Shown in pieces: positions 13,813 to 20,180 of a stretch of 32,357 nucleotides of DNA. The notes beneath the pieces were generated by a model. That model was not told the DNA's origin and made no database searches. It was given only the letters and a program-made list of their open reading frames with translations. Source of the stretch: a virus. Location of the stretch: the IMG/VR virus record IMGVR_UViG_3300037296_000022, positions 1 to 32,357 of that record; one strand, written 5' to 3'. Each line of letters starts with the position of its first letter. Position 1 is the stretch's first letter. Both the position numbers and the translations under genes were made by a program.

Positions 13813-14595
13813 ATGACACAACCTCTTAACAACTACGTCCTTGGTCGTGGTGAAGTCTGGTTCGATCAATACGCACCGGGCACACTGACCAAGACCGGCG
13901 AACTCTATCTGGGCAACACGCCTGAGTGGAATGTCAGCGCCGAAGCCGACATGCTTGACCACTTCGGTTCCGACCGTGGCATCCGTGAAAAAGATGCGTC
14001 TGAAACGCTTCAGGTGAACCGCACCGGTTCCGTGATCACGGACAATATCTCGGCGCAGAACGTCGCCTATTTCTTCTTCGGCACCACGGATCCATTCACC
14101 GTCGCCGGTGGCGCTATCGCTGCTGAATCCTACGGTCCCGTCACTCTTGGCCGCAGCTATCAGCTTGGCGTGACATCGACCAATCCGGTCGGCGTTCAGC
14201 AAGTGTCGCTGGTCAGCGTGACCGATGTAGGTGGCACAACCACCTACGTTGAAGGCGAAGGCAACGATTACGTCGTGGATCTGGCCCTCGGTCGCATCCA
14301 GATCTTGGAAGGTGGTGCCATCACCGCCGCTGAGATGCTTGAGATCAGCTACACCGTGACCGGTTATACGGTTGAGCGCGTGATCTCTGGCGGCAAGCCA
14401 ATCGAAGGCGCATTGCGCTACATCGAATATAACCCTGCCGGTAAGTCCCGCATCTGGGTTATGCCCCGCGTGAAGCTGTCGCCAAACGGCGATTACAACC
14501 TCAAAGGCGACGACTGGCAACAGATCCCGCTGAATGTGGAAGTGCTAAAGCTGGGTGCTTTGGAAGCCATCTACATCGACGGCCAAGCAGTCTGA
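13813..14595 (+). CDS. Major tail tube protein
   Basis: This 260-residue protein is expected to stack as hexameric rings to form the tail tube. It is a beta-rich protein with the N-terminal segment NYVLGRGEVWFDQYAPGTLT and GELYLGNTPEWNVSAEADMLDHF. It then has a repetitive-strand middle part, ending in SPNGDYNLKGDDWQQIPLNVEVLK, all typical of Chi-like and lambda V-like tube proteins. It sits directly before the tail chaperone and tape measure genes. GGAG at 13802-13805 serves ATG 13813. It has its own leader region with a hairpin rather than a coupled start, consistent with a need for high copy number. Confidence 0.88.
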   Translation: MTQPLNNYVLGRGEVWFDQYAPGTLTKTGELYLGNTPEWNVSAEADMLDHFGSDRGIREKDASETLQVNRTGSVITDNISAQNVAYFFFGTTDPFTVAGGAIAAESYGPVTLGRSYQLGVTSTNPVGVQQVSLVSVTDVGGTTTYVEGEGNDYVVDLALGRIQILEGGAITAAEMLEISYTVTGYTVERVISGGKPIEGALRYIEYNPAGKSRIWVMPRVKLSPNGDYNLKGDDWQQIPLNVEVLKLGALEAIYIDGQAV

Positions 14596-14632
14596 TGATA
14601 GGGTGAAGTCCTAACCCGAATCGGAGAATGAT

Positions 14633-15085
14633 TTGTCTGGACTTCACCTCATCAAATTGCCCACGAAAACGATCAAGGTCTCGCACACTTCTGATTTTAG
14701 TGTGCGGGGCCTTTCCTTGCCCGACATCCTGTCCTTGGTGGCAGTTTACCGCGATGATGCGACCATCATCTTCGACAAGTTCGCTGAAACCCAAGAGGTC
14801 AGCATGGACATTGTGTTCGAGGTTATTGCGATGGCACCTCAACTTGTCGCCCTGTTGATCAACCTTGCTGCCGATGGTGATGAAGCAAGCCTTGAGATTG
14901 CCCGAACACTGCCCGTTCAGGTGCAGGCTGATGCACTTGAGGCCATCGCAACGCTAACCTTCGACGCTGAAGGTGGGCCAAAAAAGCTGATAGAGACAGT
15001 CGTTCGCATGATGGGCGGACTAACTCAAGCAAGCGCAGCGATTGGCGACTCGATGACTTCATCCGGTCCCAACAGCAGCAAGTAA
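14633..15085 (+). CDS. Tail assembly chaperone G (zero-frame product)
   Basis: A 150-residue protein between the tail tube and tape measure genes, the position of lambda G. It begins with TTG at 14633, served by GGAG at 14623-14626 (6 bases spacing). The sequence is helical and Ala/Leu-rich in the middle (MAPQLVALLINLAAD). It ends in a Ser-rich tail (TSSGPNSSK). G coats the tape measure protein and recruits tube subunits during tail assembly. A slippery heptamer at 14980-14986, about 33 codons before the stop, diverts some ribosomes into the -1 frame to make GT. No ATG-based alternative start is better placed. Confidence 0.85.
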   Translation: MSGLHLIKLPTKTIKVSHTSDFSVRGLSLPDILSLVAVYRDDATIIFDKFAETQEVSMDIVFEVIAMAPQLVALLINLAADGDEASLEIARTLPVQVQADALEAIATLTFDAEGGPKKLIETVVRMMGGLTQASAAIGDSMTSSGPNSSK

Positions 15086-15288
15086 GTTACCTGATCTATA
15101 AAGGTCATGTGGACGCCCGACACTACACCCTCGGGATGCTCAACGTCCACATGGCATGGGTTTCAGAGTTTGTTTCATCCGAAGTGGTGACGCAGGCTGT
15201 GATGACCCAAGGGGCTGTCTCTTCCACCACCTCGAAGCCGGGCCTAAAGGCTTTCAAGAGCATGATCGCCAAACTCACGGGCGGCTAG
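14633..15288 (+). CDS. Tail assembly chaperone GT, -1 frameshift fusion product
   Basis: After reading AAG at 14984-14986 the ribosome can slip back one base. It then continues from 14986 in the -1 frame, which is open without a stop to TAG at 15286-15288. The product would have 118 residues shared with G plus 100 new ones, 218 in total. The T part begins ADRDSRSHDG, contains QQQQVSYLIYKGHVDARHY and ends FKSMIAKLTGG. It fills the otherwise empty space before the tape measure gene and has no good start of its own. In lambda, GT is made in a small fixed ratio to G and binds the tape measure. The same role is inferred here. Confidence 0.82.
14980..14986 (+). promoter_or_regulatory. Programmed -1 ribosomal frameshift site A AAA AAG
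   Basis: In the G frame the codons read CCA AAA AAG, giving the X XXY YYZ heptamer A AAA AAG, identical to that of Escherichia coli dnaX. The -1 frame is open from here to 15286. A Shine-Dalgarno-like AAGGTGG lies just upstream (14970-14976) and might stimulate slipping. No strong downstream stem was found by eye. Confidence 0.85.
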
Positions 15289-15325
15289 ATGTATGACCCA
15301 GCCTATGGTATCTGGGTCATACATC
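15288..15325 (+). other. Perfect 14-bp hairpin between GT stop and tape measure start
   Basis: GATGTATGACCCAG (15288-15301) pairs perfectly with CTGGGTCATACATC (15312-15325) around a 10-base loop. The first base is the last base of the GT stop codon. The structure ends 5 bases before the ribosome site of the tape measure gene. No T-run follows, so it is unlikely to be a standard terminator. It may limit tape measure translation or set mRNA processing. Confidence 0.65.
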
Positions 15326-15344
15326 AATCGTGAGGACATCCCCC

Positions 15345-18300
15345 GTGGCAAATAAAGACGTAAATCTCACGATCACGGCCCGTAACGCCGCGACCAAAAC
15401 CATCAAATCTGTTGGTGATGCCCTCAAGGATATGCGGACTGCCCAGAAGCAGGCCAATGCGGAAAATACCGGCGGCACCCAGTCGGTCAAGAACATGGCC
15501 GGTGCCTATGGTGAACTGGTCGGTCAGGTGCGCCGCCTGAAGGCCATCGCGGATGTCAGCAAGAATGTGAACAGCGCCGCCGCCGCCGTGGAACGCCTTG
15601 GGGCCGCAAACAAGAATTTGGCAACCGACCAAAAGAAGGTGGCCGACAACCTCGCAAAAGCCAAGGTTGAGACTGACGCAGTTCGCGCATCCCAGAAGGG
15701 TGTAAACGCTGAACTGACCGCGCAGAACGCCGCGCTTGCTGAGGCAAAAGCCCTCAAGACCCAGATGAAAAAAGATCTGGTCCAAGAGGAACGGCTATAC
15801 AAGAAAATCAGCACCGCCGCAGCAAAGGCTCAGCAGGGAGATGGTTTTGGTCAACCTGCAATCAAGTCGGCTGAACTGTTTCAGGCTGACAACGTAGGTG
15901 ATCAGCGCATCGCCCTGATGAAAGTTCAGGCGACGATCGACAACCTGACCAACAGCACCAAGAAACTGAAGACTGAGCAATCTGCCCTCACCACTACGTC
16001 CAGCAAGGCTACTGCCGCTGAGACAAAGTTGAACGGTGAATACACCAAGTTGACCGGCACCCTTCAAGCCAACACCCGCGCCCTCGCAGAAGGTCGGGCC
16101 GAACTCGATCGCATCCAAGATGCTGCCGCCCGTCTGGGTGTTGCTGGTGGTATGGGGGATCTGGTTGCCAACCAAGAGAAGCTGAAGGTCGCCACCCGCG
16201 AAGTCACGGCTGAGATGGAACGGCTGGGCAGTGTCCAAGCCGCGCTGAATCGCTTTGACGCCGGTGGTGCCAACTTCACAGATCCAAAGACTGCTGCTGC
16301 CATCAAGGCTCAGCGTGAAGAGATCAATAAGGCCCGTGTAGCCTATGAACTGCTGACCGCAGAACATACCCGTTTGTCTGCTTCGGCCCGCGCAGTCCTT
16401 GCCCCTCAGTCCGCTGCTGCCAAAGCCGCCCGTGAAGTGGGTAACGCCGCCGCCGCAGCAAAACGTGAACTGGCTGACCAAATTGAGGTCATGAACCGGA
16501 TCCCCGGCAGTGCTGGCAATATCGGTAAGAGTCTGAATGGTCTGTTCCGTGGATACAACACAGAGGGGCGCACCGCGCTTTCGCTGACCCAACGTATCCG
16601 CGCTGAGGTCATCAGCCTTGCACTGGCCTACGGCGGCTTACATGAGGCCATCCGCCTGATGTCTGAGGTGGTGGACGCCTATCGGACAATGGAAGCTGCT
16701 ACCAACCGCATCATGGTCGTGGTTGAGGGGGATACCCGGCGCACCGCAGATGAACTCGGCTTCCTGTCCCGCATGGCATCGCGCCTTGGTGTGGACTTCG
16801 GTGTCCTGTCTGATGAGTATTCCAAGTTCGCCGTCGCGGCCAATTCCGCCGGTTACAGCATGGAGTCCACCCGTAAGATCTTCACGGCGGTTTCTGAAGC
16901 TGGTCGCGTGAACAAGCTGTCCACGGAACAGATGTCTGGTGCGTTCCTCGCATTTACCCAGATCATTCAGAAGGGCAAGTTCTCGGCTGAAGAGGTCACT
17001 AGGCAGTTGTCCGAGAGACTGCCGGGGGCTACGGCTATCCTCGCCAAAGCGATGTTTGGATCTGCTGATGCGGTGGACCAACTCTTTGACGCGATGAAGA
17101 AGGGTGAGTTGCTGGCGACTGAGGAAAATCTGCTGAAATATGCAGATGGTCTGAATGAGAAGTTCGGCCCTCAGCTTTCCAAGTCACTGCGCACCACCAC
17201 AACCCTCATCGGCCAATTCACCAATGAGTTGTTCCAAGCCAAGCTGCGCATTGGTGAAGGTGGGTTCATTGATGCCCTGAACGTCGCCCTTGAAGAGATG
17301 ATCACTTATTTCAAGAGCCGTGAAGGTCGTGACTTCTTCCTCGCCATCGGTGCCGGTATGGGCAAAGTGGTTGAGATGGTCCCGTTTTTGGTTCAGAATT
17401 TTGATACCATCATCAACCTGATTAAGACCTTCGTGGCCTTCAAGATGGCTCAGTGGTTGTTCAATACTGCCCTCGCCTTCACCGCCCTCGGGCGTGAAAC
17501 GCTAAAGATGCGGACCATGATGGGTCTGGCGGTAACTTCTATGAAGACCGGTGAGGGGGCGATGTATTCGCTGGGCCGCGCCGCTCATGCGACCCGTGCA
17601 GCACTACTCGCAATTCCCGGTGGTCTTGCCATTGCCGCTATCACAACAGGCATCAGCTACCTGATGGGTAACTGGTCCGCTGGCGTCACTGAGATCAATA
17701 GCGGAGTCGATGAGCATCAGCGCATCATGGGTGAGATCCTAAAAGCCTATGAGGACGCCAAGGATAAAGCTGGGGAATGGAAAGAGGCACTGCCCGACAC
17801 GGTTGACGGTGAAGATCTTGCCGCCAACTTCGTCCGTCAACTTGCTACAGCAGAACGTGATTTCACTGACCTTGTGAACAATGGTTTCCAAGTTGGTCTG
17901 AGCCGCAAGAACTTCTTCAGCGACATCTCGGGTCAAGTCCGTGATGAGATCTTTGCGATGACCGCAGAACTCAAAAAGACTGGGGATCTCGACGCCTATA
18001 TCACGAAGTTGGAAGAACTTGCCGCGACAACGGCAAACCTGAAAATGCGCGAAGTCGTCATCGGGCTTATTGATACGGCCCAAGAGGCAAAGTCGTCTTC
18101 TGAGCGTATGGGTGAAGCCGCAGTTGCGGCAAACGAATATGGCGTTGAGATCGACGGCGTAGCTGAAGCTGCTGAAAAGTTTGGCCGCACCCTTGAGGAC
18201 ATGACCGTCGCCGCTGAGGCTAACGTAGCTGCCCTTGATGACTCTGGTGAGAAGGCTGAAAAATACGCCGAACTCATGGATGAGGTTGGTTCAAAAATCA

Positions 18301-20180
18301 AAGGTGTTGCTGAAGAACTTGAACTGCTTTCTGAGATCAAAGCCCTTGATGAAATGCTTGTTCAACTGGTTGCCAATGCAAACGGTTTGGATGAGGTTGC
18401 TGCGGCCTTCCTTCGTGTCCGTGCGGCACAAGACCAACTGCGGACTGATGCCATCGTGGTGCCGTCTGCTGACTCCTTTGAGAGTGAATATGTCCGTCGC
18501 GCCGCAGCAGGTTCGGGTTCTAAAGAAGAAGAACTGGTTCGGGCCGTCACTGCGTTGGCCGAAAAGATGGGTGTCGCCGCTGAGGATCTTCTGACTGCCA
18601 TCTCATATGAGACTGGGGGTGATCCAACTAACACTCGCGCCGGTAGCAACAATGTCACGTCCCAAGGTAAGCACTTCGGTCTCATTCAGTTTGGTGATGG
18701 GCCGGGTGCTGCTGGTGAACGCTATGGTGTGACCCGTGACTCGAGCATCACCGAACAGGTGATTGCTGCCGGTAACTATCTGTCTGATGCAGGCATCAAA
18801 GCTGGTGACGGCCTGAAGCGCATCTATGCTGCCATCAACACGGGCACCCCAGATGGTGGCGGTCGGACTGATGAAAATAACGGCGGCGCACCGGGCACCT
18901 CGGATGAAAAAGTTGACAACCAGATGGAAGGGCACCGTAACCGTGCCAAGGGCCTGCTTGCTGCTTATGGTGGTCTTGTCCAAGAGGTTGAAGATCTTGC
19001 TGAGGCTGAGAAGGACGCCGCTGAGGACCGTGCCAAGGTTCTTGAGGACGGTCGCGCTTCAACCGCTGAAACCATCGCAGAAGGTGCCTTTGCCATTGAG
19101 CAACAGGACCTAATCAATGCGGGTAAGGACCGCCAAGCTGCAATCGAAGATGCTATCCGCAGTGCAAAGGCTGAGGATCCCGCAATCTCTGAAGCTGAGT
19201 TGGCAAGCATCACCGCTCAGACCGCAGCACTCTATGATAAAGAAAATGCACTGACTGCTGAGGAAGCCCGTAAGAAGAAAATTGAGGAAGTCGATAAGGC
19301 ACTGAATGACCTAGAGTCCCAACGGAACTCTCTGATTCAGCAGCGTGATGCGCTGAAGGCTCAGGGGGACATTGCTGGTGCCAATGAGATTGACTCTGAG
19401 ATCGTCGCCATCACCGCCGCGCTGGACGCTGCCTATGACGCCGCTGTCAAGTTCTGGGAAGCCCTCGGGGGTGAAGGATCTCTTGCGGCCATTGAGGCGC
19501 TGAAAGCATCCAAACTTGAGATCGTGGCAACCGGCCAAGCCGCGCTGTTCACCGCTGAGGAATTGAACACATCTATCGCGGATGGTCTGACCTCAACGCT
19601 GTCCGCCGGTATGTCCAAGCTGGCCCAATACTTCACCGACTTCCAAGCCTATCAGGAAGAGGGTGTAAGCGTTTTCCAAGCGATGCGAACAGCCTTCCTT
19701 CAGTTTGCTGCGGACTTCCTGATCAAGATTGGTCAGATGATCGTCAAGCAACTCATCCTGAACGCCCTGAAGTCGGCGCTGGGTGGTGCCACGGGTGGCG
19801 TAGGTGGTCTCATCGCGGGTGCCATCGGCAAGGTGCTTCATACCGGCGGAATCGCGGGTGCGGCTGGCGGCACAAGCCGTTCGGTGTCCCCTGCAAACTA
19901 CATCGGCGCTTCCCGCTACCACGGCGGCGGCATCGCGGGTCTGAAGCCTGATGAGGTGCCTGCCATCCTTCAGAAAGGTGAAGAGGTCCTAACGGCCAAT
20001 GATGATCGACACCGCAAGAACGGGGGTGGTAAGAACGGGACACGCCCAATGAGAATCGTCAACGCCATCGACGGCCCAAGTTTCCTTGAAGCCGCCCTTG
20101 GTGACACCGCCGGTGAAGAGATCTTCATCAATAAGGTCCGGTCCATGAAGTCCGCGATCAAAGCAGCACTTGAGGTCTAA
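15345..20180 (+). CDS. Tape measure protein with embedded lytic transglycosylase-like domain
   Basis: A 1611-residue protein that sets tail length and is ejected with the DNA. The first ~400 residues are Ala/Lys/Glu-rich coiled coil. The tape measure N-terminal domain spans about 417-650, with QIIQKGKFSAEEV and RQLSERLPGA near 553. Hydrophobic segments lie near 692-716 and 751-776. Around 1080-1130 a lysozyme-like module has ISYETGG with Glu1089 as likely catalytic acid, then HFGLIQFG near 1112. More coiled coil follows. The C-terminus has the usual YHGGGIAGLKPDEVPAILQK and EEVLT. Start: GTG 15345 after TGAGGA (15331-15336, 8 bases) is preferred to GTG 15330. It is the longest gene of the window. 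Confidence 0.93.
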   Translation: MANKDVNLTITARNAATKTIKSVGDALKDMRTAQKQANAENTGGTQSVKNMAGAYGELVGQVRRLKAIADVSKNVNSAAAAVERLGAANKNLATDQKKVADNLAKAKVETDAVRASQKGVNAELTAQNAALAEAKALKTQMKKDLVQEERLYKKISTAAAKAQQGDGFGQPAIKSAELFQADNVGDQRIALMKVQATIDNLTNSTKKLKTEQSALTTTSSKATAAETKLNGEYTKLTGTLQANTRALAEGRAELDRIQDAAARLGVAGGMGDLVANQEKLKVATREVTAEMERLGSVQAALNRFDAGGANFTDPKTAAAIKAQREEINKARVAYELLTAEHTRLSASARAVLAPQSAAAKAAREVGNAAAAAKRELADQIEVMNRIPGSAGNIGKSLNGLFRGYNTEGRTALSLTQRIRAEVISLALAYGGLHEAIRLMSEVVDAYRTMEAATNRIMVVVEGDTRRTADELGFLSRMASRLGVDFGVLSDEYSKFAVAANSAGYSMESTRKIFTAVSEAGRVNKLSTEQMSGAFLAFTQIIQKGKFSAEEVTRQLSERLPGATAILAKAMFGSADAVDQLFDAMKKGELLATEENLLKYADGLNEKFGPQLSKSLRTTTTLIGQFTNELFQAKLRIGEGGFIDALNVALEEMITYFKSREGRDFFLAIGAGMGKVVEMVPFLVQNFDTIINLIKTFVAFKMAQWLFNTALAFTALGRETLKMRTMMGLAVTSMKTGEGAMYSLGRAAHATRAALLAIPGGLAIAAITTGISYLMGNWSAGVTEINSGVDEHQRIMGEILKAYEDAKDKAGEWKEALPDTVDGEDLAANFVRQLATAERDFTDLVNNGFQVGLSRKNFFSDISGQVRDEIFAMTAELKKTGDLDAYITKLEELAATTANLKMREVVIGLIDTAQEAKSSSERMGEAAVAANEYGVEIDGVAEAAEKFGRTLEDMTVAAEANVAALDDSGEKAEKYAELMDEVGSKIKGVAEELELLSEIKALDEMLVQLVANANGLDEVAAAFLRVRAAQDQLRTDAIVVPSADSFESEYVRRAAAGSGSKEEELVRAVTALAEKMGVAAEDLLTAISYETGGDPTNTRAGSNNVTSQGKHFGLIQFGDGPGAAGERYGVTRDSSITEQVIAAGNYLSDAGIKAGDGLKRIYAAINTGTPDGGGRTDENNGGAPGTSDEKVDNQMEGHRNRAKGLLAAYGGLVQEVEDLAEAEKDAAEDRAKVLEDGRASTAETIAEGAFAIEQQDLINAGKDRQAAIEDAIRSAKAEDPAISEAELASITAQTAALYDKENALTAEEARKKKIEEVDKALNDLESQRNSLIQQRDALKAQGDIAGANEIDSEIVAITAALDAAYDAAVKFWEALGGEGSLAAIEALKASKLEIVATGQAALFTAEELNTSIADGLTSTLSAGMSKLAQYFTDFQAYQEEGVSVFQAMRTAFLQFAADFLIKIGQMIVKQLILNALKSALGGATGGVGGLIAGAIGKVLHTGGIAGAAGGTSRSVSPANYIGASRYHGGGIAGLKPDEVPAILQKGEEVLTANDDRHRKNGGGKNGTRPMRIVNAIDGPSFLEAALGDTAGEEIFINKVRSMKSAIKAALEV

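Follow-up and report, generated by a model that had tools for sequence, protein, structure and literature searches.

The question raised by this locus is whether a gene for a tail assembly chaperone, here called G, is also translated into a longer protein, GT, by ribosomes that slip into the -1 frame, as in phage lambda. The window, by which we mean the whole stretch of DNA analysed, is an IMG/VR virus record of 32,357 bases, and all features described below lie on its plus strand. A preliminary description had proposed a G/GT tail chaperone pair made by a -1 frameshift, and the family profiles, the position conserved in 141 loci, the lack of a start for T and the codon-level constraint on T agree with it; a programmed -1 ribosomal frameshift, with G of 150 aa and GT of 218 aa as its products, is, judged from sequence, very likely the correct reading.

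Gene G (14633–15085) runs from a TTG start to a TAA stop and encodes a 150 aa tail assembly chaperone, or pre-tape measure protein. It belongs to Pfam PF23789 (Pre_tape_measure, E=1.4e-40, scoring 139 bits where the curated cut-off is 27), matches phrog_5260 (E=7.5e-39), and has fold matches in BFVD to tail proteins and chaperones; searching PDB with the G model returned no match at E <= 0.001. A likely Shine-Dalgarno sequence, GGAG (14623–14626), lies 6 nt ahead of the TTG, and both elements are identical in Loktanella phage pCB2051-A and present in the relative L175. Phage pCB2051-A (Casjensviridae, Broinstvirus), which was isolated on a Loktanella, is the nearest match of the window among phage records (85.6% identity over 98% of a 5-kb query). 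Upstream of G, in the place expected of its neighbour, lies the gene of a major tail protein with an Ig-like domain (13813–14595; phrog_807, E=1.8e-65), and downstream of T follows the tape measure gene (15330–20180; phrog_2335, E=3.7e-280; Pfam TMP_3, 2.1e-21), so that the order major tail protein, G, T and tape measure is that of a G/GT pair. By the start annotated in pCB2051-A, GTG 15345 is a more likely tape measure start than GTG 15330.

The heptamer A AAA AAG (14980–14986, read as CCA AAA AAG) stands in the frame of G near its 3' end, and the -1 frame is open onward from it; the aligned position is conserved in relatives. This T frame is free of stops from 14971, after a TGA, to a TAG ending at 15288. 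The part read after the shift, 14986–15288, comprises 100 codons and the TAG, the 99 bases 14987–15085 also encoding the end of G in the 0 frame. Since the -1 frame from base 14986 holds 100 codons, the predicted fusion has 218 residues, with the junction GGPKK-ADR; frames and translation agree exactly with what the preliminary description had given. The arrangement exceeds chance expectation: the sequence AAAAAAG occurs three times on the plus strand of the window, and in ten other genes of the window a -1 frame open for 100 codons follows only 0.58% of in-frame positions. No family of Pfam or NCBIfam matched T; it matches phrog_9221 (E=1.4e-11) and phrog_11703 (E=2.5e-15). The latter spans both frames, G corresponding to its positions 3–129 and T to 136–232, and one database profile therefore already covers the two.

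We compared the site with relatives drawn from annotated phage records and from metagenomic and genomic loci, with identical sequences removed; profiles derived from alignments A1 and A2 served to locate G and T. The gathering of the loci relied in part on a DNA-level pattern of the T motif; neither the -1 relation nor the heptamer was part of the selection. T lies in the -1 frame for 141 of 143 G rows and at every one of the 141 distinct loci in the alignment of the site, counts that do not equal independent events because of the T-motif-based gathering and the related sequences in the set. In the two remaining rows, L034 and one fragment of L052, T is in the +1 frame, and indels seem to have damaged both; L052 is present again as a -1 fragment. 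In L034, a Chi-like record, the apparent indels (about 2500–2765) lie in the last part of G and within T and are probably homopolymer sequencing errors.

As to the heptamer itself, whose conservation in relatives had been proposed as a check, a canonical XXXYYYZ stands at the aligned codon in 120 of the 141 sites; elsewhere, 52 of the 22,503 in-frame positions examined have one (0.23%). AAAAAAG is the commonest form (54 sites, among them the nearest relatives pCB2051-A and L175), followed by AAAAAAA (30), GGAAAAG (15), GGGAAAC (12), GGGAAAG and AAAAAAC (7 each), GGGAAAA (5) and others (11). Relatives that lacked the heptamer and had a separate T start had been named as evidence that would count against a frameshift. 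Relatives without a canonical heptamer, such as Ruegeria phage V18, in fact keep T in the -1 frame, and this test therefore fails to refute the frameshift. The range of heptamers also bears on the idea that RNA polymerase, not the ribosome, slips on the A run and so produces a fusion mRNA. A runs can slip in transcription and there are six consecutive A here, but transcriptional realignment is cited for runs of more than seven A (PMC3711429), and relatives carry GGGAAAG, GGGAAAC or GGAAAAG at the same position, where there is no long homopolymer; we consider this origin of the fusion very improbable.

G GAA AAG, found at 15 of the 141 sites (L016, L017, L018, L095, L119, L189 and others, including the Ruegeria phages V16 and V18 and the Rhodobacter RcCWillis phages), is not of the XXXYYYZ type. 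Here the tRNA-Glu in the P site would have to pair anew with GGA, the middle pair being G-U, and G-U re-pairing has been raised for other odd motifs (PMC10885494). No paper on frameshifting at GGAAAAG in phage tail genes came up in a literature search.

In several records of relatives, G and T are annotated as one joined feature or labelled a 'frameshift' product. Others annotate a short separate ORF in the T frame, and T might accordingly be a gene of its own, starting for example at GTG 15109 or ATG 15136 and coupled to the stop of G, from which GTG 15109 is only 24 nt away. This, however, would leave the slippery heptamer at the same codon of those 120 sites unexplained. Moreover, the -1 frame has no ATG, GTG or TTG from the site to 15109, and in both the window and pCB2051-A none precedes the conserved core of T, into which GTG 15109 would cut. 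The GH..A motif of this core was found in 139 rows, and between site and core the -1 frame lacks all three start codons in 115 of them and ATG in 132. T is thus a conserved domain in the -1 frame without a start of its own, and a separate T gene is highly unlikely.

The comparison with pCB2051-A (LOKG_00032; about 81% identity in G and 89% in T) points to selection on the T protein. In the region that encodes T only, 25 changes fall on T codon positions 1, 2 and 3 as 5, 4 and 16, and the residue is changed in only 7 of 68 codons; the dual-coded overlap has 10 changes in 99 bases and the G-only part 65 in 345. This codon-position pattern is that of a protein-coding frame, and by this measure T is under protein-level constraint. 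Such constraint is not expected of a -1 ORF arising from a sequencing error or gene decay, a reading that might suggest itself for a metagenomic contig when two relatives (L034 and L052) look indel-damaged at this place. The same arrangement occurs in the isolate pCB2051-A and at the other aligned loci, and the isolate relatives refute error or decay, to which we give practically no credence. The record of pCB2051-A has the identical heptamer and the identical TTG start and differs from our reading in that T is unannotated. The T extension (3476–3679 in L004, the pCB2051-A locus) is also missing from several other Casjensviridae records. Our reading corrects the annotation of this nearest isolate phage, whose record lacks T.

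On the programmed frameshift reading, most ribosomes would translate G to its own stop (14633–15085) and yield the 150 aa chaperone. In a minority, the two tRNA-Lys, the P-site one on AAA and the A-site one on AAG, would move back by one base and both re-pair with AAA, and these ribosomes would go on in the -1 frame to 15288, giving the 218 aa fusion. The reading frames, the conserved site, the conserved T domain without a start and the gene order are shown by the sequences; we infer that slippage takes place, how often it does so, and that the products act as chaperones. If the lambda model applies, the adjacently encoded tape measure protein would be coated by many G and few GT molecules, with the major tail protein recruited by the T part, and neither G nor GT would stay in the virion.

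What might promote slippage at this heptamer was considered on the side of the host and on that of the RNA. In E. coli, A AAA AAG owes its slipperiness to tRNA-Lys(UUU) being the only lysine tRNA. We searched 61 genomes from the family to which Roseovarius litorisediminis belongs, a likely host family, with anticodon-arm patterns for tRNA-Lys(UUU) and tRNA-Lys(CUU), which were found in 54 and 5 genomes, respectively. ARAGORN confirms two of the CUU matches (G035 and G005), a third (G036) has the right shape but is not called, and two look spurious. From these counts the sole-UUU condition therefore usually holds in this family, a statement that allows for the 7 of 61 genomes missed by the UUU pattern and that concerns a likely host family of the window.

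On the side of the RNA, no significant downstream stem was detected in the window (z = -0.06 over 80 nt, -1.6 to +0.05 over other lengths), in line with the earlier remark that no strong stem is evident; a dnaX-type hairpin is thus not seen, folding of the pCB2051-A sequence does not predict the window's best short stem, and Rfam gave no match. The site is preceded by GAAGGTGG, whose Shine-Dalgarno-like duplex energy of -7.8 is weaker than the mean of synonymous shuffles (-8.9), and across the 141 sites upstream Shine-Dalgarno-like pairing was not enriched over such shuffles (p = 0.45). Downstream folding energy at the 141 sites is slightly below that of the upstream control (mean z of -0.78 vs -0.13). 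The gain is concentrated at heptamers ending in C (GGGAAAC -2.26 and AAAAAAC -2.25 vs AAAAAAG -0.61; mean z values that ignore kinship). C-ending loci with stronger stems include L006, L176, L178-L180 and L182 and, with GGGAAAC, L080, L117, L142 and L148; among the AAAAAAC sites, those grouped around Rhizobium phage X2_30 show a clear stem some 6 nt past the heptamer. Apart from the slippery site, a perfect long hairpin, GATGTATGACCCAG...CTGGGTCATACATC, extends from the stop codon of T to just ahead of the tape measure gene (15288–15325). It is identical in pCB2051-A, absent in L175 and lacks a T run, and it could be a regulatory or processing hairpin.

We put forward, tentatively and as rather doubtful, that the choice of heptamer in this phage group tracks stimulators and the lysine tRNAs of the host, with A6G used on a sole tRNA-Lys(UUU) without a strong stem, C-ending heptamers with stronger stems, and the non-canonical G GAA AAG through middle G-U re-pairing. 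If so, the family would offer a natural set of variants in which to test how the G:GT ratio is kept up with different signals. The 141 aligned sites are more useful than the single site because one gene family makes the same shift with several heptamers.

Among known systems, phage lambda shares with the window the gene order, a -1 shift close to where G ends and the short and long chaperone, but its heptamer is GGGAAAG and no sequence homology of the window G to lambda G is apparent. The lambda G:GT molar ratio is about 30:1, and the roles of both proteins have been reviewed (PMC5009743). A BFVD match of G to N15 GT was weak (E=0.49) and was discarded as evidence of kinship. E. coli dnaX has the same heptamer, A AAA AAG; it differs in that a Shine-Dalgarno stimulator and a hairpin bring about a shift about half the time (PMC3711429), neither element being above chance in the window, and in that its shifted product is truncated, not extended. 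For two tail chaperone genes tested experimentally, a shift of 6-7% was reported (PMC3711429). The preliminary description had regarded a dnaX heptamer as unusual here, a view that does not hold given its frequency in the phage group. For this very gene pair, AAAAAAG was predicted in 2012 in AH2, a phage that belongs with pCB2051-A to one family (PMC3483164), and the same source, citing Xu et al. 2004, lists VT1-Sakai, psiM2, PVL, PV83, ul36 and a Borrelia prophage, which are unrelated phages, as further users; it has also been proposed for Paenibacillus phages (PMC6003738). Burkholderia phage AH2 (Casjensviridae, Ahduovirus), with gp55/gp56, has a homologous G (about 37% identity), the T domain and, at the corresponding codon, A AAA AAG, the pair likewise standing ahead of the tape measure gene; it differs in its host, Burkholderia cenocepacia, and in the downstream stem-loop that its authors draw (PMC3483164), the window having no significant one. 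With the AH2 prediction and the other users in print, the window site is thus an unremarkable orthologue of something already described, of low novelty, carrying the usual slippery site of its phage family and adding one more documented case of a textbook mechanism.
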